Assembly: GCA_903875455.1 (NCBI GenBank) | Contig: CAIQWF010000154.1 | Span: forward strand, 1-64,000 | Length of the DNA: 64,000 bases | Source of the DNA: an uncultured Pseudomonadota bacterium | GTDB lineage: Bacteria > Pseudomonadota > Gammaproteobacteria > Methylococcales > Methylomonadaceae | Direction: 5' to 3' | In this document: positions 1,695 to 60,908 of the stretch, one piece after another | How the letters are laid out: every line of letters begins with the position of its first letter | Numbering within the stretch: the stretch's first letter is position 1 | Program-made: the position numbers and the translations under genes | The notes under the pieces: generated by a model | Databases searched by the model: none | Told to the model about the DNA's origin: nothing | The model's input: the letters and a program-made list of their open reading frames with translations, nothing else

Positions 1695-4600
1695 TTAATT
1701 CATCTCAATCAAATTAATTTCTTCCGCCGTTAAATCAAACAATTGATAAACCGCATTGTTTAATTGCAATTCCAGCGCGGCGATTTGCAGATTAAAATCC
1801 TGATGCTGTTTTTTAATTTCACTCATAAAATCGCGCCATTCGCTGTGTTTTTTCACCGGCAGTTGCACTTTGTTTTTTGCCAGTTCTTCCAGAAAGTCTT
1901 TAAATTCCAAATCCCAGGCGTTTTCCAGTTTGCGGGTGAGTTTTTTCACGCCTAATTCGGCAATGCTTAATTGCGTGTCTTTTTCCAGTTTATAACGTGC
2001 CTCGCTTAAGGTTTGGCATTGCTCGGCAAGTTGCCCGACGTGCGATTTTTGTTCGTCTGTTGCGGGTGGAATCGGAATCCGTTCAATATTTTGAGAAAAC
2101 ATTCTTATCCTCCATTCTCCACCGCGCATTGCATCTGAAATTCCTTCCAAGAAAAACCATACCGTTTTTGAATTTAGCAAGCCCAGCAAAAACTCATCGG
2201 TGGATTCTATGAAATAAGCCGTATTCGGAAATAAGGAGGTTTTTTCATCAATATGGAATTTTGAACCTTGCGACAAATCAGGATAAACAATTTTTGGATT
2301 TTCAAATTTGTCGTAATAAGCACAGGCCCTTAATTCCCACCAAAAATCGCCTTTATCGGTACGTTTTCGTGCAGCATCCGCAAAAGGTTCTAACCATTGC
2401 GCAATCGCAGAATAATTATTTTTTAACCAATCCCAACTTTGCGGCTCATCGAGTAATTCGCCGGTTTTTTCCTGCGTCCAACCTTTCGGCATCAAAATCA
2501 GCCACAAATCACGCGGTTCTGAATGCCATTTTTTTAAATCCTTCCCTTCCAAAAACGGCTTTAATAATTCAGCGGATTTCGGGTCTTGCTGAATTAACTT
2601 ATCTTTGATTGTGCCATCAATCACAAACGCTTCATTCAAACCGGTTTTAATCCCATACAGCGGCGAACCGTAAACTTCTTTCAAGGTCGGATAACCGCGC
2701 GTGAGTTTGTCGCGCAACTGATTGAGCCGCGCATTTTCCAACTGCCAGCTTTCCGCGCGTAATTGTGAATGCGCCATCACGCCATGATTTTCTTTAAAAA
2801 ACTCGCTTAACTTTTCCGGCAATTCCTTTTTCAACAACAGCGTTTGAATTTCACTATCCGCTTCCGGTTTGGCATTTTGAAAAATCAAAATCGCCGGATA
2901 CGTCGTTACGCCTTCAAAAACCTGCAAATCACCAAAATCCACCACCTTTTTCAGCGTCGCATTTTCGGTTAAAAATTTACGCAACGGCTCGCCGGAACCG
3001 GTTTTAAAAAAAGTCGAAGAACTGATAAAACCCAACATGCCATTCGGCTTGAGCAGTTTTAATCCCAACTCAAAAAAGTAAGCGTACAAATCCGCCACAC
3101 CGTGATAAACCGCGTAATTTGTTTGCAAATACGGCTTCACATCGCTTAATAATTCCTGCCGCACATACGGCGGATTGCCCAGCACCACATCAAAACCGCC
3201 GCTTTGCATGATTTTGGAAAAATTAGCCTGCCAGCAAAAACTGTCCTGATTAACCGCAGAATCAAATCCCAAACTATTGCCGACCTGCAAATGCTGACCA
3301 ATCGTCGCCAGCTTTTTGCCTCTCTCCGCCGTTTTCAGCCACAACGACAATTTGGTAATCTCAATCGACTCAGGATTCACGTCCACGCCGCTTAAGTTGG
3401 AACTTAAAATCTCCTTGTTCAGCAAATCACTATGCAGACTAAAAATATCCGGCTGCCCGCTCAGTTCCGAAATGCGGTGATTAATGCGCTGATATTCAGC
3501 ATGAAGCACATCAAAAGCCGCCACCAGAAACGCCCCGGAACCACAGGCCGGATCAACAATTTTGATGGTTTTTAACATTGCCTGCCACGCCGACAAAAAA
3601 TTTAATTCCGCGTCAGTTTCGCTCAGCTTTTTCGCCGGCTTATGACTGGCAGTCATTGAATTCCAGACGATTTTATCGCCCTCGATATGACCAAACCCGC
3701 TTAAACAGGCATCAAAACGCTGCTGCAAATAGTCGCTCAAAGTGTGTTCCACAATAAACGCGGTGATGTGGTCAGGCGTATAAACAATGCCGTGCTGCTT
3801 GCGTTTGCCGGTTACGGAACCGGTTTTTGCGCCGGGTTTTAATTGCCCGTCCTGCTGAATTTGCGCAGTAATTTCTTCCAAATCCGCAATCGACTGTTCA
3901 AAAATATGCCCCAGTACGGTGATGGAAACTTCGCTGTCAAAATCATATTCGGCAATCTGCAAAAAACCTTTGCAGATTTCATCAGCGACAATCAACCGGT
4001 CTAAAAGCTTGTCGGGCGCAAACAGACCGCCGTTATATTCTTTAATATCCAGCTCTTTCCGGCCTTTGTTAATCGCATTAAACAGACTTTTGAAGGTTTG
4101 ATATTTCGGTTTCGGGTCTTCGTAAGGATTGGTAAATTTGTAGGCTTTTTCAATACTTTTGTCAGGAATCAGACCTTTATCTTCGGCAAAAGCCACAAAC
4201 AAAATCCTATCGAGCAGTTTTTGGGCGGGCGAAATCAGCTCCAGCGGCGCAATTTCAGGATTATCCTGCATTAATTGCGTTATCAATTGTTCACGCAGAT
4301 TTTTGTAATCGGCATAAAGCTGGGCGGTAATCTCTTTTTCGGCTTGCTGGCTTTGCTCCAATAATTGTTTGGTGCCGCCGCCGAGTAAATTATCGGCCTG
4401 CAAACACAGCATAAACCGCGCATATTCGTCGCGTTCGGTGAGTTTGGCCAGCTCGAAACTTTCATAAACAAACTTGGTATAGCCAAACGCATATAACCGC
4501 AGTTCGACATAATTTGACACTAAAACCCATTGGCAGCCTTTGCAATTGACCGCATATTCCCAGGCCTGCTGCACCGGACTTTTAGTGCGCCCGCTCATAA

Positions 4601-4946
4601 TCGCGTCGAGATTTTTGGTTTTTGCGCCTTTCAGTTCAAAAACCGCATGAACAATATCACCCTGTTTATCGTTGCAAAACTGCCCTAAAGCCAAATCCAC
4701 CGCGCCGCCGGCAATCGGATATTCTTTCGCCACCGTGTAACTGCTGTTTTCGCCAAACGCCTGATAGCCCAAAACTTCCACCAGCAGGTTTTGCATGAAC
4801 ACGCCTTGCAAGGCGACTTCGGATTGTTTTTCCAAATCACGGCTGAAAATGCGCTTTTGCCAGTTTTGCAAAATAGCCAAATGTGCGGAGGGGATTTCCT
4901 GCGCTTTCAGATGTTTCTGGATGATTTTTTTGTTGAATAACGGCAT
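1695..4946 (-). CDS. Type IIG restriction-modification enzyme (Eco57I-like)
   Basis: This 1083-residue single-chain enzyme should cut and methylate DNA in the same polypeptide. An N-terminal PD-(D/E)XK nuclease is suggested by D84 and by ELK at residues 104-106. The N6-adenine methyltransferase core follows, with the SAM-binding motif DPACGSG at 465-471 and the catalytic NPPY at 591-594. The C-terminal third (about 740-1083) resembles a target recognition domain followed by a coiled helical end, as in TaqI/Eco57I-type enzymes. The length fits the type IIG family of 900-1300 residues. No separate specificity or nuclease subunit is nearby, which supports a stand-alone enzyme. The gene is intact and heads a minus-strand run with an immunity-like gene and a toxin-antitoxin pair. 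The recognition site cannot be read from the sequence. Confidence 0.9.
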   Translation of the reverse strand: MPLFNKKIIQKHLKAQEIPSAHLAILQNWQKRIFSRDLEKQSEVALQGVFMQNLLVEVLGYQAFGENSSYTVAKEYPIAGGAVDLALGQFCNDKQGDIVHAVFELKGAKTKNLDAIMSGRTKSPVQQAWEYAVNCKGCQWVLVSNYVELRLYAFGYTKFVYESFELAKLTERDEYARFMLCLQADNLLGGGTKQLLEQSQQAEKEITAQLYADYKNLREQLITQLMQDNPEIAPLELISPAQKLLDRILFVAFAEDKGLIPDKSIEKAYKFTNPYEDPKPKYQTFKSLFNAINKGRKELDIKEYNGGLFAPDKLLDRLIVADEICKGFLQIAEYDFDSEVSITVLGHIFEQSIADLEEITAQIQQDGQLKPGAKTGSVTGKRKQHGIVYTPDHITAFIVEHTLSDYLQQRFDACLSGFGHIEGDKIVWNSMTASHKPAKKLSETDAELNFLSAWQAMLKTIKIVDPACGSGAFLVAAFDVLHAEYQRINHRISELSGQPDIFSLHSDLLNKEILSSNLSGVDVNPESIEITKLSLWLKTAERGKKLATIGQHLQVGNSLGFDSAVNQDSFCWQANFSKIMQSGGFDVVLGNPPYVRQELLSDVKPYLQTNYAVYHGVADLYAYFFELGLKLLKPNGMLGFISSSTFFKTGSGEPLRKFLTENATLKKVVDFGDLQVFEGVTTYPAILIFQNAKPEADSEIQTLLLKKELPEKLSEFFKENHGVMAHSQLRAESWQLENARLNQLRDKLTRGYPTLKEVYGSPLYGIKTGLNEAFVIDGTIKDKLIQQDPKSAELLKPFLEGKDLKKWHSEPRDLWLILMPKGWTQEKTGELLDEPQSWDWLKNNYSAIAQWLEPFADAARKRTDKGDFWWELRACAYYDKFENPKIVYPDLSQGSKFHIDEKTSLFPNTAYFIESTDEFLLGLLNSKTVWFFLEGISDAMRGGEWRIRMFSQNIERIPIPPATDEQKSHVGQLAEQCQTLSEARYKLEKDTQLSIAELGVKKLTRKLENAWDLEFKDFLEELAKNKVQLPVKKHSEWRDFMSEIKKQHQDFNLQIAALELQLNNAVYQLFDLTAEEINLIEMN

Positions 4947-24300: not shown

Positions 24301-24790
24301 CAACGCCTTGAAATCAGGTAAACAACCCGAATTGGCCCTTTCTTTGGACAGCGGCACAGAAGTTGATTTGCAAACTGCGGCGTTGATTCCAGAGGATTAT
24401 CTGCCGGATGTTCACGCCCGGCTGGTGTTGTATAAACGCATTGCCAGCACCGAAAATGCCGAACAGCTACGCGCCTTGAAAGTGGAAATGATAGACCGGT
24501 TCGGGTTGTTGCCGGAACAGGTGAAAGCTTTATTCAGTTTGACTGAATTGAAACAGCAAGCGGCGATATTGGGTTTGAAAAAAATCGACGTTCATACCGC
24601 CGGTGGCCGTTTGGTGTTCGGGGCGCAGCCCAATATTAATACCGAAGCGTTAATCACTTTGATCCAAACCCAGCCGCAGATTTATAAACTGGATGGAATG
24701 GAAAAGTTAAAATTTATTAAGAATTTTACTGACACTGAGGAAAAATGTGAGTTTGTCGGGCAATTGTTAAAGCTATTAAGGCCATTGTGA
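21311..24790 (+). CDS. mfd: Transcription-repair coupling factor Mfd
   Basis: Mfd removes stalled RNA polymerase and recruits UvrA/UvrB. The 1159-residue protein has the UvrB-homology N-terminal module (about residues 1-350), the polymerase-interaction domain (CarD-like, from about 490, LTIGSPVVHREHGVGRYLGL), and the RecG-like translocase with Walker A GDVGFGKTE (about 640-648), DEEHRFG, TATPIPRTL and the TRG region. The C-terminal D7-type domain runs from about 1000. The length is typical and the gene intact. It is followed after 135 bases by an unrecognised pair of membrane/coiled-coil genes. Confidence 0.97.
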   Translation: MATTEVSVFSPPLPNKITEPVYWTGLSGCADTLALANAIKNEARLFVIITPDSQTALRLEQELAFFLDRTYPILHFPDWETLPYDVFSPLPEIISQRLKTLAALPQTKRGALVVSIATLMHRLAPREHVLAHSFSIKLGGQFNLELNRLKLESVGYQCVSQVYQHAEFAVRGAIVDLFPMGSDVPYRIELFDDEIESIRTFDPETQMSLEKVTEIQLFPAREFPFTDASIKQFRQTFRELFPNASAKNNLYADVSKGIAFGGIEYYLPLFVDSTESLFDYLPASAFLVVPESFNRGAKLFYAEAEERFEQRKYDIERPLLKPQQLFLTTEELTAKTTAFNRIVCAMTQTSSPVEDWSSAAVIDFKSLSLPDLTIDTRLKQSGHRLQEFLAECKGRVLLVAETAGHREGLIDKLKLYQLQAKQVTSWRQFLESSDSLCMVVAPLEHGLWLTNPALVIISESLLSGEKVQQRRRQRRAGLKELENIVNNLTELTIGSPVVHREHGVGRYLGLQTITVGGITNEFLALEYANNDRLYVPVSSLQLIGRYTGINPEATPLHRLGSDQWDKAKKKALEKIKDVAAELLDIHANRAIKQGHAFSVDHSEYLAFAEAFQFEETPDQQTAIDTILEDMTRAQPMDRVVCGDVGFGKTEVAMRAAFIAVQSGKQVAVLVPTTLLAQQHYQNFRDRFADWPIRVEVTSRFVTAKQQKQIADELAEGKVDIVIGTHKLLSKEMRYKQLGLVIIDEEHRFGVQQKEYFKKLRNELDMLTLTATPIPRTLNMAMSGLRDISVIATPPPGRHVIKTFISEWVDAQIKEACLREIKRGGQVFFLHNDVKTMDKMAEVLGQLIPEARIEIAHGQMPERELEKIMLDFYHQRFNLLLSTTIIESGIDVPTANTIIINRADKLGLAQLHQLRGRVGRSHHRAYAYFVVPPKALLTKDAQKRLEAVEASGDLGAGFMLSSYDLEIRGAGELLGEGQSGQIQEIGFTLYTELLEKAVNALKSGKQPELALSLDSGTEVDLQTAALIPEDYLPDVHARLVLYKRIASTENAEQLRALKVEMIDRFGLLPEQVKALFSLTELKQQAAILGLKKIDVHTAGGRLVFGAQPNINTEALITLIQTQPQIYKLDGMEKLKFIKNFTDTEEKCEFVGQLLKLLRPL

Positions 24791-24925
24791 CCTGAAAACC
24801 AAACTTGCTGTCTTTAAGATAACAAATTGAAAAAACAGCTTTTAATGTTTTGAATTAGTTGCTATAAACTGCCATCCAGATTGTTTGAACTTTTACAGCC
24901 GATATATTGAAAACCTTACCTTAAC

Positions 24926-26185
24926 ATGAAAAACTCTGAACTCAGCAAAATAAGAGCCTCCGGCGTGGGCTATTTTATTAATAGCATCCAGACCTTGTTT
25001 GTCGGCCTGTTAAGAATATGGACCATTCCGATTGTGTTAATGCTGAGTGTCTCCTCTGGTTTTACCACCTATTACGGCATGTCTCATTTCATCACGCCGT
25101 GGATTGCGCTGATTATTACCGTTGCCATTCAATCAATCATTGTGATTTGTTCGCTGGAGATTGCCGGAATTCACTGGCGGGCTAACAAAATGCGCTATTT
25201 TTCCGTAGTCTGTTCTCTGGCGATTGCGCTAACCGCTTCAGTTTCGTTTTCCTATTTCCAGTTTTATGAAATTTCTGAACAAAACACCCTGCATATCAAC
25301 CGGTTAAATAAAGTCCGAACCGACATAAAAAACTATATAGACCAGGTTTTGCAGATTAAAGCCGCTGTTTTAAAACAACAACGTGCCGACACGGAAAAAG
25401 CCTCGGTTGAAGTGTCGCAGGCTTATTTTGGTACTCATGCGCAAATTATTGACGGCTATAAAAAGCAGGTTGGCGAAGGGCCATTCTGGAAGCATTACAA
25501 CCAGATTTATCAGGAAAAAAAGCAGCAGCAAACCCGGCTGGAGCAGGATTTTTCTGAGCTCGATAAAGATATTCAAAAACTGCATATCAGCCTTAATGAG
25601 CTGGATGTGGCGGCAGATACTGAAGTTGCCTATTCTGCGATGCTGCGGAATTTTCAGAATGTGCAGCTGAAAATCAATCTGTTATCCGGCAGTGTTGGCC
25701 AATCTTTGCCGGAAGCGCCGTTGCTGATGACTTACAAACAATTTACCGCAGATGTACAGCCTTCGGCGGCGATGTGGTCGGAATTTTCAATGTTCGCTTT
25801 TGTCTGTGCGGCGATGGTGGATTTCTTTACCGTGCTGCTGTCATACCGGCTGGAATTTACCGCACCCGGCCCTTTAACCGCCGAAGAAGAAAACCTGGTT
25901 TTTGAATGCCTGAGACAGTTTACCGAGTTTCGGATTAATAAAAATGACGAACTGGAAATGGTGATTGAAAAAACCGAAATGGAACGGGCGCGGCGTTATT
26001 CGGACTGGTCGAGGATGTTTGCGGTCGGTTTGTTGCTGAGTCGCGGTTTTTTGAGAAAAATTGACGATAAAACGGTCGAATTTGCGCCGAATCTTTATCC
26101 TTTAATCGCTGAAAAAATGGCCGATAAAATTAACAGGTTGAAGGCCGAAACAGCTATTGCCAGAAAAGCCGAAACTCATGAATAA
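24926..26185 (+). CDS. Unrecognised four-helix membrane protein with coiled-coil loop
   Basis: I do not recognise the family. The 419-residue protein has predicted membrane helices at about residues 27-48, 57-80, 91-113 and 285-308. Between helices 3 and 4 lies a long helical stretch rich in Gln, Lys and Glu (about 120-260) that should form a coiled coil. After helix 4 comes a soluble C-terminal region of about 110 residues (GPLTAEEENLVFECLRQF...). The gene overlaps the next start by eight bases, so the two are translated together. With the SPFH-like coiled-coil protein downstream it may form a membrane complex. Depending on helix count, the coiled coil and the C-terminal domain lie on opposite sides of the membrane; if the C terminus is cytoplasmic, the coiled coil is periplasmic. 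Function unknown. Confidence 0.65.
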   Translation: MKNSELSKIRASGVGYFINSIQTLFVGLLRIWTIPIVLMLSVSSGFTTYYGMSHFITPWIALIITVAIQSIIVICSLEIAGIHWRANKMRYFSVVCSLAIALTASVSFSYFQFYEISEQNTLHINRLNKVRTDIKNYIDQVLQIKAAVLKQQRADTEKASVEVSQAYFGTHAQIIDGYKKQVGEGPFWKHYNQIYQEKKQQQTRLEQDFSELDKDIQKLHISLNELDVAADTEVAYSAMLRNFQNVQLKINLLSGSVGQSLPEAPLLMTYKQFTADVQPSAAMWSEFSMFAFVCAAMVDFFTVLLSYRLEFTAPGPLTAEEENLVFECLRQFTEFRINKNDELEMVIEKTEMERARRYSDWSRMFAVGLLLSRGFLRKIDDKTVEFAPNLYPLIAEKMADKINRLKAETAIARKAETHE

Positions 26186-27452
26186 CTCCAGAACTGACAT
26201 TGATAACTGGCTTGTTGCAAGCGATTTTGCCGACGACGATTCCGCTGTTTCAGAAGTATGGGAGCCTGTTTTTGAGCCGGATCGCCATCTTGTTCACATT
26301 AAAATAGGGCCTTACTGGAAACTCTATCTGCGCCCGCAAGGATTTGTGAAGCGTTTTTATCACAAGGTTTATCCTTTGCCGGTTGAAAACTGGCGCCTCA
26401 GTGAAGAGATTAAGCTTTATGACGGTTTTTGCACTTTTGAAGCAGTTTTGGAGGTCCGCTTTCAAGCGACATTGAAATATGCGCTCGGCAATATGGGGAT
26501 TTTGGCCGGCCTCAATGACCATATCAAAAACTCATATCAGGATTTGCTAAGCAATTTAATCCAGAAAGAATTGCTTGAATTATCGGATGGCTCATGGGTA
26601 CAAAAAGGCGTAACCGCGATTGAAAAAAGGATTTGTCTGGCGGTGAATGAAATGTTGATCCTGCAAAATATCCAGTCACAAGCCTTGTGCATACTAAAGC
26701 CGACATTTGAAGAATTTCCCAGCGTCCAACTGGGGCGGGAGAATGTGTTTTTATGTGTGCTGAAAAGGAGTTTTGAGTTTAGTCAGGCCAAAAGGGAAGA
26801 GATGTTTCGTCAAAAACAGGAGGTTGAACGGCAAACTCAGGAGCATAAACAAAAGCTGCTTGCGCAACTCAATCTCGATGCCGAACTGGACCGGCAGATA
26901 CAGGCCCAGGAAGCGGCAAATAAAAAACGTTTGCTGGAAGATCAGGAAAAACAGTTGCGCGAACAGTTTGAAATCGAAAAACAGTTGTTTCTTGAACAAA
27001 CCAGACAGAAAAATGCCCTCAAGGAGATAACGCTGGAAGCAGAGCTTCAGGAACAGCAAAAGCATCAGGCCCGGTTAAGAGCCGCAGAGCAGGAAAAACA
27101 CATGGAATTATTGCTGCATCAAGCCAAGCTGAAAGAGGAAAAACTGCAAGTTGATGTTATCACCTACGAAAAACAGCAGGCGAAATGGCAGCAAGCGAAA
27201 AATAAAGTTTTTGAACAGCAACTGGCATTGGAGCAGCGGCAAAAACAGCAGGAATTTGAAGCCCATCACAAAAACCAGCAGCGGCTTGAGGAGATGCAAA
27301 AGCAAAGTTACCAGAAAAGACTGGCGGCTGATGAGTTTTTGCGCAAAGAGCTGGAATCACTTGCTCTGGAAAAACAGCGGCTGGAGTTGCAGTTAGCGGT
27401 AAATGAAGATAAAAAACTGAAAGCCAGCGGCAACAAATCAGACTTGCTCTAA
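26178..27452 (+). CDS. SPFH-like domain plus long coiled coil, unrecognised
   Basis: The start ATG at 26178 overlaps the preceding gene by eight bases; an upstream start at 26157 lies further inside it. The 424-residue protein has an N-terminal half (about residues 30-200) with a fold pattern like the SPFH/band-7 domain: HLVHIKIGPYWKLYLRPQGF, FCTFEAVLEVRFQATL, VTAIEKRICLAVNEM. The second half (about 205-415) is an almost unbroken Gln/Lys/Glu coiled coil without a predicted transmembrane segment. This is the plan of flotillin-like scaffold proteins, though the match is by eye and weak. It is the likely partner of the membrane protein upstream. No catalytic motif is visible. Confidence 0.55.
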   Translation: MNNSRTDIDNWLVASDFADDDSAVSEVWEPVFEPDRHLVHIKIGPYWKLYLRPQGFVKRFYHKVYPLPVENWRLSEEIKLYDGFCTFEAVLEVRFQATLKYALGNMGILAGLNDHIKNSYQDLLSNLIQKELLELSDGSWVQKGVTAIEKRICLAVNEMLILQNIQSQALCILKPTFEEFPSVQLGRENVFLCVLKRSFEFSQAKREEMFRQKQEVERQTQEHKQKLLAQLNLDAELDRQIQAQEAANKKRLLEDQEKQLREQFEIEKQLFLEQTRQKNALKEITLEAELQEQQKHQARLRAAEQEKHMELLLHQAKLKEEKLQVDVITYEKQQAKWQQAKNKVFEQQLALEQRQKQQEFEAHHKNQQRLEEMQKQSYQKRLAADEFLRKELESLALEKQRLELQLAVNEDKKLKASGNKSDLL

Positions 27453-27457
27453 ATATT

Positions 27458-27997
27458 ATGCCTGTAACTCCGTTCCATGTCGGCCCCGGCAGTCTTGTCA
27501 AAGTGCTGTTGCGGGAAAAGTTCAGTCTGACCATTTTTGCCTTTGCGCAAATCGTGATCGACTTGCAACCTTTAGCTGCCATGCTGGGTGCGGATATAGA
27601 AGTTCATGGCTTTACCCACACTTATTTGGGCGCGACGCTGGTAGGGGCAATTTCCGGTATTTTCGGCAAACCTTTGTGTGAACAGGGTTTGCGCTTGTGG
27701 AATCGCGATATGTCCCTTTCTAAATCCCATCCTCTCTGGCATTTTCCTGAAAAAATTTCCTGGCTGATTGTCATCAGCAGTGCCTTGATCGGCACTTACA
27801 GTCATGTGTTGCTGGATTGCATCATGCACGCTGAAATCCAGCCTTTTTATCCGCTGGCAGCTGAAAACGCGCTGTTTGGCTTGGTGGAGATGGATGAATT
27901 GCATAAGTTATGTGCTTATGCCGGGTTAGCAGGTTTTATCTGCTATTTCGGTATCGGCTATCTTCTTTCTGTCACTGCAAACAGGCAACGAGGCTGA
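27458..27997 (+). CDS. DUF4184-like membrane protein
   Basis: The 179-residue protein opens MPVTPFHVGPGSLVKVLL and has HGFTHTYLGATLVGAISG (about residues 50-67), features of the DUF4184/YdjM-type membrane proteins with conserved histidines that could bind metal. Three or four hydrophobic segments are seen (about residues 20-45, 55-75, 105-130 and 150-175). Other conserved histidines are H8, H50, H53, and H119 in TYSHVLLDCIMH. It lies six bases after the coiled-coil gene and eight bases before the next, so the four genes read as an operon. The biochemical role is unknown. Confidence 0.68.
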   Translation: MPVTPFHVGPGSLVKVLLREKFSLTIFAFAQIVIDLQPLAAMLGADIEVHGFTHTYLGATLVGAISGIFGKPLCEQGLRLWNRDMSLSKSHPLWHFPEKISWLIVISSALIGTYSHVLLDCIMHAEIQPFYPLAAENALFGLVEMDELHKLCAYAGLAGFICYFGIGYLLSVTANRQRG

Positions 27998-28004
27998 GAA
28001 ACAA

Positions 28005-28448
28005 ATGAAAAAATTACCGGGAATTTGTTTTGTGCTTGCCATGTTTTTCTGGGCGATAAACGTTCCAGCAAAGGCGGAGCAAGTCAGCGACACGGCAAAA
28101 TCAGAGCCTGTCATCCTTAAATCTTATCAATTGCCGCGTGAACAATGGCAGGCCTGGCAGAAAGTTCAACAGGATTGGCTGAAAACAGAATATCCAAAAA
28201 TCTTGCGCCAGCAGAGGCTGAAAATGAATTGCAGCGGCTGTGAAAATATTTATCTGGATGTAGTCTTTTCAATTGATGCAACGGGCAAGTTAAATCAGTA
28301 TAAACCGGTCAACAGCAGAAAATGTGCAGAGCAATTTTCCGAACAATTGCTGAAAAAATTTGTTGCCTGGTTTTTCACCCTTCAATTTCCGCCTGAGTTG
28401 TATGATTTAACTTTTGAAGTACGCCTGGGAACCGGATTGACTTGTTGA
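28005..28448 (+). CDS. Small secreted protein, TonB C-terminus-like
   Basis: This 147-residue protein has a signal peptide (ending about residue 23, NVPAKA) and a mature domain of about 120 residues. The pattern YPKILRQQRLKMNCSGC, then VVFSIDATGKLNQYKPVNSR and a closing hydrophobic FVAWFFTLQFPPE, resembles the TonB C-terminal fold (small alpha/beta). It carries four cysteines after the signal (two close together in NCSGC). The first 30 residues of mature chain lack the proline-rich region of real TonB. It is the last gene before dnaA on the same strand; its stop lies 243 bases from dnaA. The role is unknown. Confidence 0.5.
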   Translation: MKKLPGICFVLAMFFWAINVPAKAEQVSDTAKSEPVILKSYQLPREQWQAWQKVQQDWLKTEYPKILRQQRLKMNCSGCENIYLDVVFSIDATGKLNQYKPVNSRKCAEQFSEQLLKKFVAWFFTLQFPPELYDLTFEVRLGTGLTC

Positions 28449-28690
28449 AAACGCAAGAGTTCCAGCACGATGAAAGGCAGCAGTTAAATTATTTTCAAAA
28501 AATAAACGCACCGTACCAACCGGCAAAACAATTCTTACATTTGTTGAAAAATGCAGCAGCTGATTTTGTCTCCTTAGCTTATAATTCCACTCCTGATTCT
28601 ATATTATCAAAATAGCTGCCATGCAAAGTACGGGCAGACACCACAATTCTTTACAGAAACCTGAAACCTAAACTTAACAATGAAAAACTG

Positions 28691-30019
28691 ATGAGTTCAA
28701 CCTGGAATAACTGTCTTGCCCGGCTAGAAAACGAAATTCCCGCATCTGACTTTAGCACTTGGGTACGCCCGTTGCAGGCGGAAGAAAATGATGAACAAAT
28801 ACGTCTGCTTGCGCCTAACCGTTTTGTACTGGACTGGGTAAAACAACACTACTTTTCAAAATTTGAAGATGCGATTTATGAATTTTCCAATGGCCATTTA
28901 AGCCTGCATCTGGAAATCGGCTCCAAGTCCTCATCAAAAGTGGCTGCTGCCCCGGCAGTCAAAATCAAACAGGCCAACGAGCCAGCCAAGAAAAAACTGC
29001 CGGATTTTTTGAATAAAGCTTTTACCTTTGAGCGGTTTATCGAAGGAAAATCCAATCAGCTGGCCAAAGCCGCCGCGCTGCAAGTCGCCGAAAATCGGGG
29101 CAAAGCCTACAACCCGTTATTTATTTATGGCAACTCCGGTCTGGGCAAAACCCATTTAATGCACGCCATTGGCAATGCGGTGCTGGAAAAAAGTCCTGAA
29201 GCCAACGTGGTGTATTTGCATTCGGAAAAATTTGTCCAGGACATGGTAAAAGCCCTGCAACAAAACAACATCAGTGCCTTTAAAGAATATTACCGCAGCA
29301 TTGATATGTTGCTGGTTGATGATATTCAGTTTTTGGCCGGCAAAGAACGCTCACAGGAAGAGTTTTTTCATACCTTTAATAATCTGCTGGATAAAAAACA
29401 TCAGGTGGTTTTAACCTGTGATAAATATCCGAAAGAAATTGCCGGACTGGAAGACCGGTTAAAATCACGCTTCGGCTGGGGATTGCCGGTCGCGGTGGAG
29501 CCACCGGATTTGGAAACCCGCGCCGCGATTTTAATGAAAAAAGCCAGTATTATTGATATTGCCTTGCCACAGGAAGTGGCGTTTTTTATCAGCAAGCGTA
29601 TTCCGTCGAATGTGCGGGAACTGGAAGGGGCGTTGCGGCGGGTGGTGGCCAGTTCACAATTTACCGGTCGTCCGATTACGCTGGAATTCACCAAGGAAAT
29701 TTTGCACGACCTGATTTCCCTGCAAGAGCGCCTGGTCAATATCGACAATATTCAGCGCACCGTAGCAGAGTATTTCAAACTGAAAGTGTCTGACTTAATC
29801 GCTGAAACCCGCAAGCAGACCATCACCCGGCCGCGACAGGTGGCGATGGCATTGGCGCGGGAACTCACCAGCCACAGCTATCCTGAAATCGGTCATGCCT
29901 TTGGCGGACGCGACCACACCACCGTGATTAATGCCTGCAAACGGGTAGAAGAACTGCGTAAAAGCAGTCTCAAGTTTGATGAAGATTACTTGAATTTACT
30001 TAGAACCTTGTCCCATTAA
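28691..30019 (+). CDS. dnaA: Chromosomal replication initiator DnaA
   Basis: DnaA binds the chromosome origin and starts replication. The 442-residue protein has domain I ([19 protein letters not shown]...), an AAA+ core with Walker A GNSGLGKT (residues 147-154), Walker B DD (210-211), and the C-terminal domain IV with [14 protein letters not shown] near residue 404, which contacts the DnaA box. A tiny frame ATG-AAA-AAC-TGA ends on the first base of the start codon (TGATG at 28689-28693); it may be chance. The 242 bases upstream contain no TTATCCACA-like box, so the origin may lie elsewhere. dnaN follows 67 bases later. Confidence 0.97.
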
Positions 30020-30086
30020 TTTTGATCAAAGATGCTACGATTTATCGCAGCTTTTTTCCAATTCACCGTCACAATCGATTATTGCC

Positions 30087-31187
30087 ATGAAATTTACCAT
30101 TAACCGCGAACAGCTTTTAACTCCCCTGCAACAAATTGTCAGCGTGATTGAAAAGCGCCAGACCATGCCGATTCTTTCCAATGTTTTAATTGTGGTGAAT
30201 GATGACCAACTGGTGTTGACCGGCACGGATTTGGAAATTCAAATTGTGGCCAAAATTGCATTGATTGATGCTGAAAATGGCGAAATCACGGTACCGGCGC
30301 GGAAGTTTCTGGACTTATGCCGGTTGTTGCCGTCCGAATCGGCCATCAGCATTGAAACCTTTGAAGATAAAGTGAAACTGATTTCCGGTCGCAGCCGTTT
30401 TTCCTTATCCACTTTACCTGCGGATAATTACCCGGAATTTGCTGAAAGCGAACTGGAAAATTCATTTCTTATCAATGCCGGCAAACTTAAAAAAGCTTTG
30501 GAAAAAACCATGTTTTGCATGGCAAATCAGGACGTGCGCTATTATCTGAACGGCTTGATGCTGAATGTTTCCAACAGCAAACTGAAACTGGTGGCTTCTG
30601 ACGGCCATCGTTTATCGATTTATAAGGATGAGATGGACACCGAGACCGGTTATGAAGAGCGGATTATCATTCCCAGAAAAGGCGTGATTGAGCTGGCGCG
30701 GCTGTTGGATGACCCGGAGGCGGAACTGAATGTGCAGTTCTCCAGTAATAACATTCGGGTTTATATTAAAGATTTGATTTTCTCGGCGAAATTGGTGGAT
30801 GCAAAATATCCAGATTTCAGCAAAGTATTTGAGCAGGCGTTTCATAATCCTATTATCGTTGCCAAACAACAGTTTAAAGAAACCTTGACGCGGGTTTCGG
30901 TGTTGGCGAATGAGAAGTTTAAAGGCGTGACTTTTGATATTACTGAGAACTTGTTAAAAATCACGACGCATAATCCAGAGCATGATGAAGGCGAAGAGGA
31001 ACTGGCGATTGATTATCAGGGCGAGCCGTTGATGATTGCTTTTAACGCTGCGTATTTGCTGGATGCGATTGCGAATCTGGATGGTGACAAGGCTTCGTTG
31101 ACAATTGCCGCGAATGCCAGCAGTTGTTTTATTGAAGAGCCGAATCAGGATGCGTATAAGTTTATTGTGATGCCGATGCGGTTGTAA
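30087..31187 (+). CDS. dnaN: DNA polymerase III sliding clamp (beta subunit)
   Basis: The beta clamp rings DNA and tethers polymerase III. The 366-residue chain begins MKFTINREQLLTPLQQIVSV and has the three repeats of the clamp; the middle region holds NPEHDEGEEELAIDYQGEP and the end is IVMPMRL, as in most bacterial clamps. The length is standard. recF, which normally follows, is absent, and a transcription terminator-like hairpin comes 11 bases after the stop. Co-transcription with dnaA is likely. Confidence 0.98.
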   Translation: MKFTINREQLLTPLQQIVSVIEKRQTMPILSNVLIVVNDDQLVLTGTDLEIQIVAKIALIDAENGEITVPARKFLDLCRLLPSESAISIETFEDKVKLISGRSRFSLSTLPADNYPEFAESELENSFLINAGKLKKALEKTMFCMANQDVRYYLNGLMLNVSNSKLKLVASDGHRLSIYKDEMDTETGYEERIIIPRKGVIELARLLDDPEAELNVQFSSNNIRVYIKDLIFSAKLVDAKYPDFSKVFEQAFHNPIIVAKQQFKETLTRVSVLANEKFKGVTFDITENLLKITTHNPEHDEGEEELAIDYQGEPLMIAFNAAYLLDAIANLDGDKASLTIAANASSCFIEEPNQDAYKFIVMPMRL

Positions 31188-31198
31188 TTTCAAAACTT

Positions 31199-31236
31199 AA
31201 ACCTTCCAGTTTTTTAAAATCAGGAAGGTTTTGTTC
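31199..31236 (+). terminator. Candidate terminator after dnaN
   Basis: AAACCTTCC (31199-31207) and GGAAGGTTT (31223-31231) form a nine-pair stem with a loop of 15, followed by a short T-rich tract. The loop is long for an intrinsic terminator, so the call is moderate. Confidence 0.55.
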
Positions 31237-31240
31237 CGTC

Positions 31241-31470
31241 ATGAAATATAGGAACAACGTGATTGTTTTGAAAATATATACAGCCATTGTCGAGCGTTGT
31301 ACTGAAACAGGTTTATATGTTGGTTTTGTGCCAGGTTTTGCTGGAGCGCATACGCAGGCAGAGAGTTTGGATGAGCTCAATCAAAACCTGAAGAAGTCAT
31401 TGAAATGTTGCTTGAAGATGGGAAATATACCCGTTTTAAAGCCGCGCGAATTTTGTTTAGGCTCGGCAGC
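31241..31470 (+). pseudogene. Frameshifted HicB-type antitoxin
   Basis: KIYTAIVERCTETGLYVGFV and PGFAGAHTQAESLDELNQNL are typical HicB residues. After ELNQNL the expected KEVIEMLLEDG reading continues in another frame, which restores with one base inserted near 31391-31396. So the gene has lost one base and the protein ends as an unrelated short tail. The natural start may be the TTG at 31268. The hicA toxin gene is absent on both sides. It appears to be a dead orphan copy beside dnaN. From the frameshift to nusB (about 31484-31751) I see no other gene, apart from a possible faint fragment on the minus strand that I cannot identify. Confidence 0.75.
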
Positions 31471-31751
31471 GCCGTTCTCATAAGCAATTTCGACATGCTG
31501 ATGGTCATTGCACCACAGTTCCGTTTCATGCAGGACCTGACACTTATACACAAATGATTGCTAAACATTAAAACTAAACGCTGTTAAATTTCCGCAGGAA
31601 TTGCAGGATAATTTTCTTGATAAATACCACTGCAAAACAAAACTCTTTCCAGTAAAATCTACTAAAAACAAGAGCGTCTAAACCTTTTGAGTACATGGTA
31701 GCTTTTGTTAAAGTAAAATACCCTTTTAATCCATAACTTATATAAATCTTA

Positions 31752-32213
31752 ATGAGTCAGGCAAAAACCAATGCCCGCCAGTGCGCGGTGCAAGCTCTTT
31801 ATCAGTGGCAAATGACCGGGCAGAATTTGAGCCTGATTGAAATCCAGTTTCATGAAGAACAGCGATTGAAAGATGCGCAAAAAAGTTATTTTGTCGAGCT
31901 TTTTCACGGTGTGCCGAAACAGCTTGATGCCATTGATACCACGTTGACTGAATTTGTAGACCGTCCCGTGGACAAGATTGACCCGGTGGAACGCGCCATT
32001 TTGCGTATTGGCACTTATGAATTAATCAATCGTCTGGAAACGCCTTATCGGGTGATTATCAATGAAGCCGTGAATCTGGCCAAACATTTTGGCGCCGACG
32101 GCAGTCATAAATATGTGAACGGGATTTTGGATAAAGTCGCGCAAAGCAAACGCAGCACTGAAATCAAAATGCCGAAACAGAAACAGCAAAAAACGCAAAC
32201 CAGCCAAGAATAA
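31752..32213 (+). CDS. nusB: Transcription antitermination factor NusB
   Basis: The 153-residue all-helical protein begins SQAKTNARQCAVQALYQWQM and has YFVELFHGVPKQLDAIDTTL and RPVDKIDPVERAILRIGTYEL (about residues 72-92), the NusB signature, with a variable basic C terminus. NusB with NusE forms the antitermination complex on rRNA and phage boxA RNA. It is usually next to ribH; here ribH is about 13 kb away. It is followed seven bases later by thiL, then pgpA, matching the common nusB-thiL-pgpA order. Confidence 0.96.
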   Translation: MSQAKTNARQCAVQALYQWQMTGQNLSLIEIQFHEEQRLKDAQKSYFVELFHGVPKQLDAIDTTLTEFVDRPVDKIDPVERAILRIGTYELINRLETPYRVIINEAVNLAKHFGADGSHKYVNGILDKVAQSKRSTEIKMPKQKQQKTQTSQE

Positions 32214-32220
32214 AGCTTTT

Positions 32221-33156
32221 ATGTCGCTGTCTGAGTTTGGGCTAATCCAGCGGTTTTTTGCCCAGCAATCCTTAAAAAGTCCGCACAATCAGTTAGGGGT
32301 TGGTGATGATTGCGCGTTGCTGGAAATTCCGGCAGGGTATCAATTGGCGGTTACCACCGATACGATGGTGGAAAATGTGCACTTTTTTGCCGGCGCCGAT
32401 CCCAGACAGCTGGGGCATAAGCTGCTTGCGGTAAATTTAAGCGATTTGGCCAGCATGGGGGCAGAGCCGTTTGCAGTGACATTGGCGTTGACCTTGCCAA
32501 AGGTGGATGAAGTTTGGCTAAGTCAATTTTCCCAAGGTTTTCTGGATTTGGCTCAGCAGTACACGGTCGATTTAATCGGCGGCGATACTACTAAAGGGTA
32601 TTTAACCTTGACCGTGCAGGCTTTAGGTTTAGTCCCCAAAGGTTTGGCGATGAAACGTTCGGCTGCAAAGCCCGGTGATTTTGTTTATGTCACTGGTTGT
32701 TTGGGTGATGCTGGCCTAGGCTTGAAAATTGAACAGGGCTATCAATGTTTGAGTCCAGACCAGGCACTACAGCAGTTTCATCAGCCTTTGCCCTGTGTAG
32801 AGCAAGGTCTGGCTTTGAGAGGAATTGCTAATGCCTGCATTGATATTTCTGACGGTTTGGCGGCTGACTTAGGGCATATTCTGGAAAAAAGTGCGGTTGG
32901 GGCTGCTATTGATGTAGACGCGCTGCCTTTATCCGCAGCAGTGAAAGGCTATATTGCCGAAACCGGTGATTGGCAAATGCCTTTGACAGCGGGCGATGAT
33001 TATCAATTATGTTTCACTGTCAGCCCTGATAAAGTCAAAGATTTAACCATTGCCTGCTGGCAGATTGGCAAAATTGAACAGCAACCCGGGTTGCGAGTTT
33101 TACGTTCCGGTAAATTTCAAACGTTAGAGGTACAAGGCTTTGAGCATTTTTCTTGA
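32221..33156 (+). CDS. thiL: Thiamine-monophosphate kinase
   Basis: ThiL phosphorylates thiamine monophosphate to the active thiamine diphosphate using ATP. The 311-residue protein has the expected MSLSEFGLIQRFFAQQ start, GVGDDCALLEIPAGY (about residues 27-41), LLAVNLSDLASMGAEP (about 68-83) and IDISDGLAADLGHI (about 206-219) motifs that hold Mg2+ and nucleotide in the PurM-like fold. It lies seven bases after nusB and overlaps pgpA by 17 bases, so the three are co-translated. The length is usual. Confidence 0.96.
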   Translation: MSLSEFGLIQRFFAQQSLKSPHNQLGVGDDCALLEIPAGYQLAVTTDTMVENVHFFAGADPRQLGHKLLAVNLSDLASMGAEPFAVTLALTLPKVDEVWLSQFSQGFLDLAQQYTVDLIGGDTTKGYLTLTVQALGLVPKGLAMKRSAAKPGDFVYVTGCLGDAGLGLKIEQGYQCLSPDQALQQFHQPLPCVEQGLALRGIANACIDISDGLAADLGHILEKSAVGAAIDVDALPLSAAVKGYIAETGDWQMPLTAGDDYQLCFTVSPDKVKDLTIACWQIGKIEQQPGLRVLRSGKFQTLEVQGFEHFS

Positions 33157-40318: not shown

Positions 40319-41194
40319 ATGGCACGAAAAAAAGCAAATAATGGCTTACCTACCTTTGATGAACTTCTAATTCCGACTGTTAAAGCTCTTCAAGAGCTTG
40401 GTGGTTCAGGCTCAATTGAAGAGATTAACAGCAAAGTTTATGTTATTGCTGAAATTTCCGATGAGATATTGCAAATTCCTCACGGGGAAGAAGGTTCTTT
40501 AAGTGAAGTTGATTATCGACTTGCATGGAGTAGAACCTATCTTAAAAAGTTTGGACTGCTTGAAAACTCATCACGAGGCATTTGGGCATTATCAAAAGCA
40601 AACATTGATACAACTAAACTTGATTCTATTGAAATTGCTAGGTCAGTCAGAGAACAAGAAAAATCAAAGCAGCCGCCAAAAACATCAACTGACAAAATAG
40701 AACTCGATGTTACAGAGGAAATTGATAACACCGAAGAATGGAAGCAACAATTACTTGAGATTCTTTACAACATAACGCCTGCTGCTTTTGAGCGATTATC
40801 ACAAAGGCTTTTAAGAGAAAGTGGTTTTTTTCAAGTTGAAGTGACAGGAAAAGTGGGTGATGGTGGAATTGATGGCAAAGGGATTGTTAGAGTTAGCGGT
40901 TTGTTAAGTTTTCATGTCATTTTTCAATGTAAGCGTTATAAAGGCTCTGTTTCACCCAGTCAAATTCGAGATTTTCGTGGTGCAATGCAAGGGCGGGCCG
41001 ATAAAGGATTAGTTATAACAACCGGCACATTTACCAGAGAGGCTATTAAAGAAGCAACTCGTGATGGTGCGCCGCCGATTGATTTAATAGACGGCGAAAT
41101 ACTTTGCGACAAATTGAAAGAACTAAAGCTTGGTGTAGAAACAAAACTCACTGAAACAGTTGACATAAAAAATGACTGGTTTAATGCTTTATGA
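40319..41194 (+). CDS. mrr: Mrr-type restriction endonuclease (type IV)
   Basis: The 291-residue protein has a winged-helix Mrr N-terminal domain (LIPTVKALQELGGSGSIEEI, about residues 17-36), a linker near 100-140, and an Mrr-catalytic PD-(D/E)XK domain with GDGGIDG (180-186) and FQCKRYKG (202-209), so the catalytic set is D185 and the QxK at 203-205. Mrr cuts methylated DNA of certain sequence contexts. It starts 42 bases after the toxin gene and its last codons overlap the start of truB (ATGA). It therefore can only be lost or altered together with translation of truB. Confidence 0.92.
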   Translation: MARKKANNGLPTFDELLIPTVKALQELGGSGSIEEINSKVYVIAEISDEILQIPHGEEGSLSEVDYRLAWSRTYLKKFGLLENSSRGIWALSKANIDTTKLDSIEIARSVREQEKSKQPPKTSTDKIELDVTEEIDNTEEWKQQLLEILYNITPAAFERLSQRLLRESGFFQVEVTGKVGDGGIDGKGIVRVSGLLSFHVIFQCKRYKGSVSPSQIRDFRGAMQGRADKGLVITTGTFTREAIKEATRDGAPPIDLIDGEILCDKLKELKLGVETKLTETVDIKNDWFNAL

Positions 41195-59231: not shown

Positions 59232-60908
59232 TTATAATGTTCCCATTACAGATAGCCCTTTGCCAATCAAGTCTTCTTGCAAGTCTTCAAGCTTGGAAAA
59301 TTGTGCATATTTTGGTCTGGAACCTAACGCACCAAAAATGATAGTATGAAAAGTTGATAAAAAATACCACGCTGCCGCAGTTTCCCCAACTGTTTTTGCA
59401 GCAGCTTCAAAAGCCTTCCCTTTCGCTTTAGACTTAGCTATTTCTGCTGCTTCAAACATGGTCTTGCCGCTTGGGGTTACAGAGAGAGATTTTTTTAAGG
59501 CTAGTTGAAAAATTTCTTTGGCATCCTTTTTTGCAAAAAATTGATCCCACATAACGCTTTGTATTTTTGAAACTGGATTGAGCATACTTTCTTTGATAAG
59601 TTCTATTTTTATAAACTTTTGAAAGAGATCGAAGCCCTCATCAGTATTAGCAGCTTTCCAGATTAACAGCGAAGCACGGGATTTTCTTGCTTTCCCTTTG
59701 GTGTTTAGCAAAAATTTATAGACTCCTTTGGCATTTCGCATGATCTCATGAATACCTGTGAGAATAAGTCCAGCGTAGTTCATGGCTTCTGTAACAATAG
59801 CTGTAACTCCTGCAGAAAGCAGGGTTATAATTCGACCTATTCCACGAGCAAAATATGAAATACCCAAATATATGTTGGAGTATTGACGACTCATGAGCTT
59901 ATTTTTTCCGTAACAACAAAACTCTTGAATTCCGGCATCCCTTGATGATTGATGTTTCATTAAAAGTGCTATTCGTTTGTCAGTTTTTTTAAAGTCTTTA
60001 AATGCAGTATGGGCGGTCAATAGATGATTAATACCCAATCCTTCAATAAACTCTAAAACATCCATATAAGCACCAGCTACGCTGGCCAAATCTTTAAAAC
60101 TTAAGTTTTCTGCAACAGGTTCTAATACTGAAGAAAGTTTTTTAAAAACAGTTGTTCCTTGCGGACTCTCAATTTTTTTCACTCCGCTAGCAACTTTAAA
60201 ATAAGTTGCACTTCCTTTTTCTATTCCCTCATTAAAATCTTGTATGGCTTTATCTGGGTCACATCCCTCTCCTAATTCATCAATAACACCCCATGTCTGA
60301 TCTACGCCTTGCAATGCTGCGAAAACGTCTTTCTTTCTGGTCCCTCCAGTAATATCCCAATTTTTAGCATCCTCTAATCCGCCACTGAAATTTCCCTTCC
60401 ATAATTCTGTTTCAATAGAAGCCAAAAATGACTCCATGTAAGTTACTCTTCCTTTTTTCCGAGGTTTGCATCGATTGTCAAATATCCATTTAGTTGTAAA
60501 ATGTTTGACATTGTTCAATGCCCCTTGCCGTTTGGAACGCTCTTTTTCTACATGAAATTGTTTTAATGCAGTAAGAATCTGATCTTTAGTAGATTCTCTC
60601 CCTATTCTCCCTCCTGTGAAATGATGAAGTTGAACTAACGCACCACGTTTTTCGCCCATAACAAAACGAAAATCCTCTAATGTATAAGCATTTATTGGCA
60701 ACGCTGGTTCTGGCTTTTCTTCTTCATCCCACAGGAAACGAATACTTTCTAACGGATCATCGTCATCGTTTACTTTTGGTAATTTTTCCTCGTCCCAAAG
60801 GTAACGAATACTTTCTAAAGCGTCATTATCTTCCTTTGTGAGTAGATTTCTTGTAGGTCCGAACCCATCTTCAGACGCACCAATTTCATAAAGCTCATCA
60901 GTTGGCAT
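59232..60908 (-). CDS. Unrecognised 558-aa protein with N-terminal internal repeats
   Basis: I do not recognise this protein. The N terminus contains a tandem repeat, LESIRYLWDEEKL (residues 31-43) and LESIRFLWDEEEK (53-65), with a third diverged LEDFRFVMGE. The rest is basic, helical and mixed. A hydrophobic amphipathic region at about residues 347-388 (YFARGIGRIITLLSAGVTAI) could insert into a membrane. There is no signal peptide. The gene is AT-rich compared with its neighbours, stands alone, and is flanked by repeats and a decayed kinase. A toxin or effector is thinkable; the evidence is only the architecture. Confidence 0.65.
   Translation of the reverse strand: MPTDELYEIGASEDGFGPTRNLLTKEDNDALESIRYLWDEEKLPKVNDDDDPLESIRFLWDEEEKPEPALPINAYTLEDFRFVMGEKRGALVQLHHFTGGRIGRESTKDQILTALKQFHVEKERSKRQGALNNVKHFTTKWIFDNRCKPRKKGRVTYMESFLASIETELWKGNFSGGLEDAKNWDITGGTRKKDVFAALQGVDQTWGVIDELGEGCDPDKAIQDFNEGIEKGSATYFKVASGVKKIESPQGTTVFKKLSSVLEPVAENLSFKDLASVAGAYMDVLEFIEGLGINHLLTAHTAFKDFKKTDKRIALLMKHQSSRDAGIQEFCCYGKNKLMSRQYSNIYLGISYFARGIGRIITLLSAGVTAIVTEAMNYAGLILTGIHEIMRNAKGVYKFLLNTKGKARKSRASLLIWKAANTDEGFDLFQKFIKIELIKESMLNPVSKIQSVMWDQFFAKKDAKEIFQLALKKSLSVTPSGKTMFEAAEIAKSKAKGKAFEAAAKTVGETAAAWYFLSTFHTIIFGALGSRPKYAQFSKLEDLQEDLIGKGLSVMGTL

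Follow-up and report, generated by a model that had tools for sequence, protein, structure and literature searches.

We analysed a window of 64 kb (the whole stretch of DNA under study), a contig within a draft genome of 265 contigs from the order Methylococcales, and found in it two overlapping genes, here denoted P1 and P2, that are inherited as a unit in this order. P1 (24926..26185, + strand) encodes a 419-aa membrane protein with four predicted transmembrane (TM) helices, a coiled-coil loop, and a conserved, presumably cytosolic C-terminal domain. P2 (26178..27452, + strand) encodes a 424-aa soluble protein with a predicted SPFH fold and a long coiled coil. We consider it probable, at roughly 60%, that the two proteins together make up a membrane-anchored SPFH scaffold in the Methylococcales, with both components obligate. 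SPFH proteins with a membrane partner are already known; what is new here is an undescribed obligate two-gene unit.

All four open reading frames (ORFs) described in the first-pass annotation of this DNA are present, and its account of the pair as a four-helix membrane protein with a long coiled-coil loop, whose gene overlaps that of a soluble protein, agrees with our results. The start of P2 (ATG 26178) overlaps the end of P1 by 8 bp; this start is conserved in the ortholog alignment and was preferred over a longer TTG start. No credible family was found for either protein in Pfam, NCBIfam, PADLOC, or PHROGs, and a sigma-70 promoter scan showed no excess over shuffled sequences. Neither of the outcomes named beforehand as counting against the pair occurred: no described family covers both proteins, and the pair is conserved.

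A search of 181 Methylococcales genomes with a P1 profile and a P2 SPFH profile found P1 in 125 and P2 in 126 of them, in the same genomes but one. In that lone P2-only genome (G473), P2 is cut off by the contig edge (it begins at base 3), which puts P1 out of view. Among 61 relatives, P1 and P2 each occurred in 44 genomes, and the two sets were identical. We examined 81 loci, comprising the window and 80 loci fetched from 141 relatives, and P2 directly follows P1 in 80 of them; the exception (L074) ends about 150 bases past P1. The two genes lie on the same strand in 80/80 loci and overlap in 76, with a largest gap of 23 bp when starts are taken from the longest ORF. The genes around the pair vary, with 38 families on the left and 42 on the right across 80 loci, and the left neighbour changes 38 times on the P1 tree. 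Because adjacency is constant while the neighbour families change, P1 and P2 stay together through rearrangement. The P1 and P2 trees have 56 of 77 splits in common, compared with a permuted mean of 0.23. The dN/dS ratios (nonsynonymous to synonymous substitution rates) of 0.02-0.10 for P1 and 0.03-0.16 for P2 indicate purifying selection, and ortholog identity reaches 86% and 64%, respectively. Together with the near-perfect conservation of the pair, these values go far past what chance would give. The overlap and the inseparability of the genes through rearrangement and loss argue for one functional complex. The unit consists of exactly two genes and is obligate, the pair apparently always being kept or lost together.

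P2 has no TM segment by hydropathy, nor has any of its 30 orthologs analysed, and P1 complements it by supplying four. An AlphaFold2 model of the P2 monomer, built from the 30 orthologs (mean predicted local distance difference test score (pLDDT) of 79.8), contains an N-terminal beta-rich domain (residues 37-177) of five strands, two main helices, and a strand, followed by a single helix. The predicted SPFH domain spans residues 28-178 (26259..26711, + strand; AlphaFold2 and Foldseek); within residues 31-170, most ten-residue blocks have a pLDDT of 81-93. The modelled helix spans the 233 residues 184-416 (26727..27425, + strand), in line with the first-pass description of about 200 residues of continuous coiled coil. 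Since P2 lengths differ between species (about 347-570 aa among orthologs), the coiled-coil part is of variable length. Near its end, a conserved helix motif at residues 376-408 (27303..27401, + strand; consensus YLRREIELLVLEKQRxEL) is a candidate docking or capping site.

When the P2 model was compared with the PDB by Foldseek, the first 19 matches were all SPFH proteins, with probabilities of 0.99-1.0. They included a flotillin complex (9l3g, E = 3.6e-5), stomatin (4e-4), erlin2 (9e-4), QmcA-YbbJ (8z5g, 1.6e-3), and FtsH-HflKC (about 4e-3). The top VIA-align matches were flotillin (Z 10.7, root-mean-square deviation (rmsd) 39.2, 364 residues aligned) and prohibitin (Z 10.7, rmsd 15.5, 186 aligned), and the isolated stomatin SPFH domain scored Z 8.7 (rmsd 3.4, 108 aligned). 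The model thus combines an SPFH-like fold with a long helix, which suggests that P2 belongs among the SPFH proteins, and the earlier label "SPFH-like" is supported by predicted structure and Foldseek, not by sequence profiles. The same genome contains at least ten other Band_7/SPFH places above the Pfam cut-off, several of which (L171, L172, L174) have long coiled coils and no obvious TM helix. By eye, none of the other long coiled-coil SPFH genes of this genome has a comparable TM partner beside it.

P1 contains four hydrophobic segments by hydropathy (residues about 20-47, 53-84, 89-113, and 285-309) and a helical loop at residues 118-258. Hydropathy and conservation together delimit TM1-3 at residues 19-117 (24980..25276, + strand), where 45/99 columns are invariant, and TM4 at residues 285-308 (25778..25849, + strand). 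Between them lie a coiled-coil hairpin and linker (residues 118-284; 25277..25777, + strand), predicted to be periplasmic by the positive-inside rule. A C-terminal domain predicted to be cytosolic (residues 309-397; 25850..26116, + strand), alpha/beta and weakly winged-helix-like, follows TM4. The TM helices and this domain are the best conserved regions, with values of 0.86-0.88 in TM1-3, TM4, and residues 309-397 compared with 0.52-0.56 in the coiled-coil arms; the C-terminal domain is the most conserved part of all (mean 0.88, 35/89 invariant). The tip of the hairpin (residues 164-205) carries a conserved motif (YFGTH...QVGEGPFWKHYNQ) and is better conserved than the arms. Helices were modelled at residues 88-168, 186-228, and 232-257. 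The loop charges fit a cytosolic N-terminus and suggest that the coiled coil is periplasmic. Foldseek with the P1 model gave no match at E ≤ 0.001, the C-terminal domain gave only weak matches in a structure search (E about 0.7), and PDB sequence profiles yielded only chance coiled-coil matches.

We propose that P2 is cytosolic and probably oligomerises by way of the SPFH domain and the long coiled coil, like other SPFH proteins. P1 would be the inner-membrane protein that tethers P2 on the cytosolic side, with its own N-terminus inside, three TM helices, a periplasmic coiled-coil hairpin with a conserved tip, a fourth TM helix, and a cytosolic domain. In this position, P1 may relay a periplasmic or bilayer signal to P2. 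The assembly might serve to organise the inner membrane or to protect it, comparable to YdjI recruited by YdjG/H, to QmcA-YbbJ, or to HflKC-FtsH, and the function is probably membrane or envelope homeostasis. In Methylomonas loci (L095, L090, and others), mucD or cysM of an rpoE-rseA-rseB-mucD(-cysM) cluster closely precedes the pair, and the gene after the pair is in most cases lipoprotein-like, with a DUF4136 match below threshold. Because the pair closely follows this cluster in Methylomonas, a role in envelope homeostasis is modestly favoured.

The proximity of a sigma-E/MucD proteolysis cluster in Methylomonas could also point to a device for membrane protein quality control, similar to HflKC-FtsH or NfeD-SPFH, which would enclose or stabilise damaged membrane proteins, with P1 acting as a client-recruiting adaptor and not as a passive anchor. 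HflK/C and QmcA are among the fold neighbours of P2, and the periplasmic tip motif of P1 is conserved. Since SPFH cages may enclose clients (PMC12624060), such a role is a live rival. However, the pair has no protease or chaperone as a neighbour conserved throughout the order, and P1 has no NfeD or protease family match among the Pfam matches listed. We regard this explanation as unlikely.

Several observations weigh against the membrane-anchored SPFH scaffold. A Band_7 (PF01145) search of the window's own genome at E ≤ 1 listed 13 places, and the P2 locus was not among them; a Band_7 match was found in 0/30 P2 orthologs, profile-profile comparison gave no link between P2 and the Band_7 proteins of the same genome, and no PDB sequence profile matched P2. 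Because these sequence-profile tests fail, the SPFH assignment of P2 rests on predicted structure. In VIA-align, T-fold enzymes (Z 8.8, rmsd 3.8, 95 aligned) score level with isolated SPFH domains, and the core fold by itself therefore does not single out SPFH proteins; the SPFH domain together with the helix outranks T-fold enzymes as a match to P2. The P1 structure model is of low confidence (pLDDT 68). The sigma-E neighbourhood is confined to the single lineage Methylomonas, the neighbours in other lineages being cysN, smc-zipA, or unrelated genes. Lastly, many methanotrophs of the order lack the pair, which is therefore dispensable.

In the window, the pair is followed by two small genes outside the unit. 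The first encodes a 179-aa YdjM-family membrane protein (27458..27997, + strand; PF04307, 31.2 bits against a cut-off of 29) and the second a 147-aa protein with an N-terminal hydrophobic, signal-like segment (28005..28448, + strand); dnaA starts at 28691. The first-pass annotation had joined all four genes into a set between mfd and dnaA. The two small genes do exist and follow closely, but they are not partners of the pair, as no counterpart of either was found near the pair in the other 80 loci. Moreover, mfd and dnaA are unlinked (distant from each other or on separate contigs) in 11/11 relatives, including the congeners G001 and G002, both of which lack the pair. When these congeners are aligned to the window, the match on the mfd side breaks off at 24771 and that on the dnaA side at about 28683; neither congener has an equivalent of the interval 24771-28683 next to its mfd or dnaA. 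The place of the pair beside dnaA is an accident of one genome. An assembly join within the contig may be the source of the mfd-dnaA linkage; the pair itself is coherent.

A four-gene module tied to replication is hardly credible on these grounds. It would be supported by the position in this window only and by two related loci (L107, from a Gigantopelta endosymbiont, and L108) in which the pair lies about 14 bp directly behind smc-zipA, so that the 38 left-hand neighbour families do include chromosome or division genes. However, the diversity of these families, the unlinked mfd and dnaA, the two congeners without the pair, and the lack of conservation of the downstream genes refute a conserved arrangement. 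Of the membrane scaffold once suggested for this region, perhaps linked with replication or the cell envelope, the membrane protein and SPFH protein hold as a unit, the replication tie falls away, and the envelope tie has the rpoE-rseA-rseB-mucD context of Methylomonas.

Other features of the window were noted by eye. At 28691-33156, dnaA-dnaN is followed by nusB and thiL, not by recF-gyrB, and G001 aligns through dnaN and little beyond. A large restriction-modification-like protein is encoded at 1695-4946 (- strand), and an Mrr-like restriction endonuclease lies before truB at 40319-41194 (+ strand). A 558-aa protein at 59232-60908 (- strand) has a repeated acidic motif near its N-terminus (LESIRYLWDEE / LESIRFLWDEEE) and was not recognised by eye.

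Two overlapping genes with TM helices, a coiled coil, and patchy presence might also suggest an anti-phage defence or toxin-antitoxin unit. We consider this very improbable: there was no PADLOC match, no relative of P1 or P2 was found on the viral contigs and plasmids searched, the neighbours are housekeeping genes where they can be named, and both the strong purifying selection and the congruence of the P1 and P2 trees speak against it.

About 85,000 species genomes of bacteria and archaea were scanned with patterns that may overlook distant relatives; 141 relatives were confirmed, and 80 of these were listed. The named relatives among these 80 are Methylococcales, including Methylobacter, Methylomonas, Methylovulum, Methylotuvimicrobium, Crenothrix, mussel symbionts, and others. 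A few listed metagenome-assembled genomes (MAGs) are labelled otherwise, two of them as Bacteroidetes; their genes are 69-71 percent identical to those of the window, and they are probably mislabelled or mixed bins. With P1 as query, 398 genomes of the phylum yielded, apart from P1 itself, a single marginal match (E = 6e-4) that is interrupted by stops, and P2 had three matches in 350 genomes of the class, all in Methylococcales. Neither the pattern scan nor the phylum and class samples contained a confirmed relative outside the order. The closest relatives of the window's P1 are from Methylobacter. In a comparison bearing on lateral transfer, fourfold-site divergence from Methylobacter was 0.47-0.53 for P1 and P2 and 0.55-0.59 for mfd, dnaA, and dnaN, values that are close to each other. 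One genome (G018) has two P1-P2 copies, on contigs C3 and C5, with identical P1 scores; P2 on C3 contains stops in its downstream part, so that one of the two copies looks damaged.

Within the order, the pair is missing from all sampled genomes of families f7 and f8, in which the AMO-family match is weaker, and about a fifth of family f1 lack it too. Inner membranes can be shaped by SPFH proteins, mitochondrial prohibitins being an example. The pair could be a structural organiser of the intracytoplasmic membranes (ICM) that house particulate methane monooxygenase in methanotrophs, and the lack of confirmed relatives outside Methylococcales, with named loci belonging to methanotrophs of the order or to MAGs carrying a close relative, the absence of the pair from f7 and f8, and the class sample (3/350, all in the order) are consistent with this. 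How these methane-oxidising membrane stacks form is acknowledged in the literature as an unsolved question (PMC9445010). However, presence within the order does not track pmoA: the pair was found in 107/151 pmoA-positive and 18/30 pmoA-negative genomes (odds ratio 1.6, not significant, Fisher p = 0.28), although this test is weak because multi-copy pmo genes may be missing from draft assemblies. The congener G001 and the majority of sampled g25 genomes (a genus of the order) carry pmoA without the pair, and no pmo gene was seen beside it. An ICM organiser is improbable, and the more specific proposal that a lineage-specific two-protein scaffold shapes or maintains the ICM of gammaproteobacterial methanotrophs, which would make it the first dedicated structural factor for these membranes, is slightly less probable still.

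Whichever membrane it serves, the pair is a two-gene unit with no family name in the libraries searched, in an order of globally important methane oxidisers. It would join an SPFH scaffold to a partner that is not NfeD, not FtsH, and not a known anchor, and it offers a simple two-gene target for asking how methane oxidisers organise their inner membranes. A literature search for SPFH proteins or flotillins in methanotrophs returned nothing relevant.

Among known families, DUF4407 (PF14362) has a layout similar to that of P1: by eye, a proteobacterial DUF4407 gene looks like three TM helices followed by a coiled coil and a further TM helix. Sub-threshold DUF4407 matches occurred in 16/30 P1 orthologs (best E = 2.7e-6), mostly over the coiled coil. 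The best explicit score was 26.6 bits against a cut-off of 31.3, and hhalign with a small DUF4407 set gave a probability of 23 percent; DUF4407 is therefore suggestive as a parent family but was not accepted as one. By eye, no SPFH partner was recognised beside the DUF4407 genes inspected.

Flotillins (FLOT1/2, FloA/FloT) resemble P2 in having an SPFH domain, a long coiled coil, and no TM helix, and 9l3g is the best Foldseek match. However, P2 is about 18 percent identical in the 9l3g alignment and has no Band_7 profile match, and flotillins have no obligate partner, whereas P2 has P1. The SPFH-NfeD systems, such as QmcA-YbbJ, are likewise two-gene arrangements of an SPFH protein and a small multi-TM partner, and QmcA is a fold match of P2. 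Unlike P2, QmcA itself inserts in the membrane. P1 differs from the partner in these systems by its coiled-coil loop, and no NfeD match was found for P1 in Pfam, nor does NfeD appear among the 25 families that 30 orthologs matched most often.

A close parallel in layout is the YdjGHI-PspA system of Bacillus subtilis, in which the soluble SPFH protein YdjI reaches the membrane only with the co-encoded TM proteins YdjG/H, and in which loss of YdjI alters membrane fluidity (PMC8581546). In both systems, an SPFH protein without a TM helix of its own is co-encoded with one or more TM proteins, and P1 and P2 are adjacent in 80/80 loci. The parallel is drawn from layout, not from homology. The P1-P2 unit contains no PspA and no constant third gene in 80 loci, and YdjG and YdjH are two proteins, whereas P1 is one four-TM coiled-coil protein that may by itself anchor P2 to the membrane.

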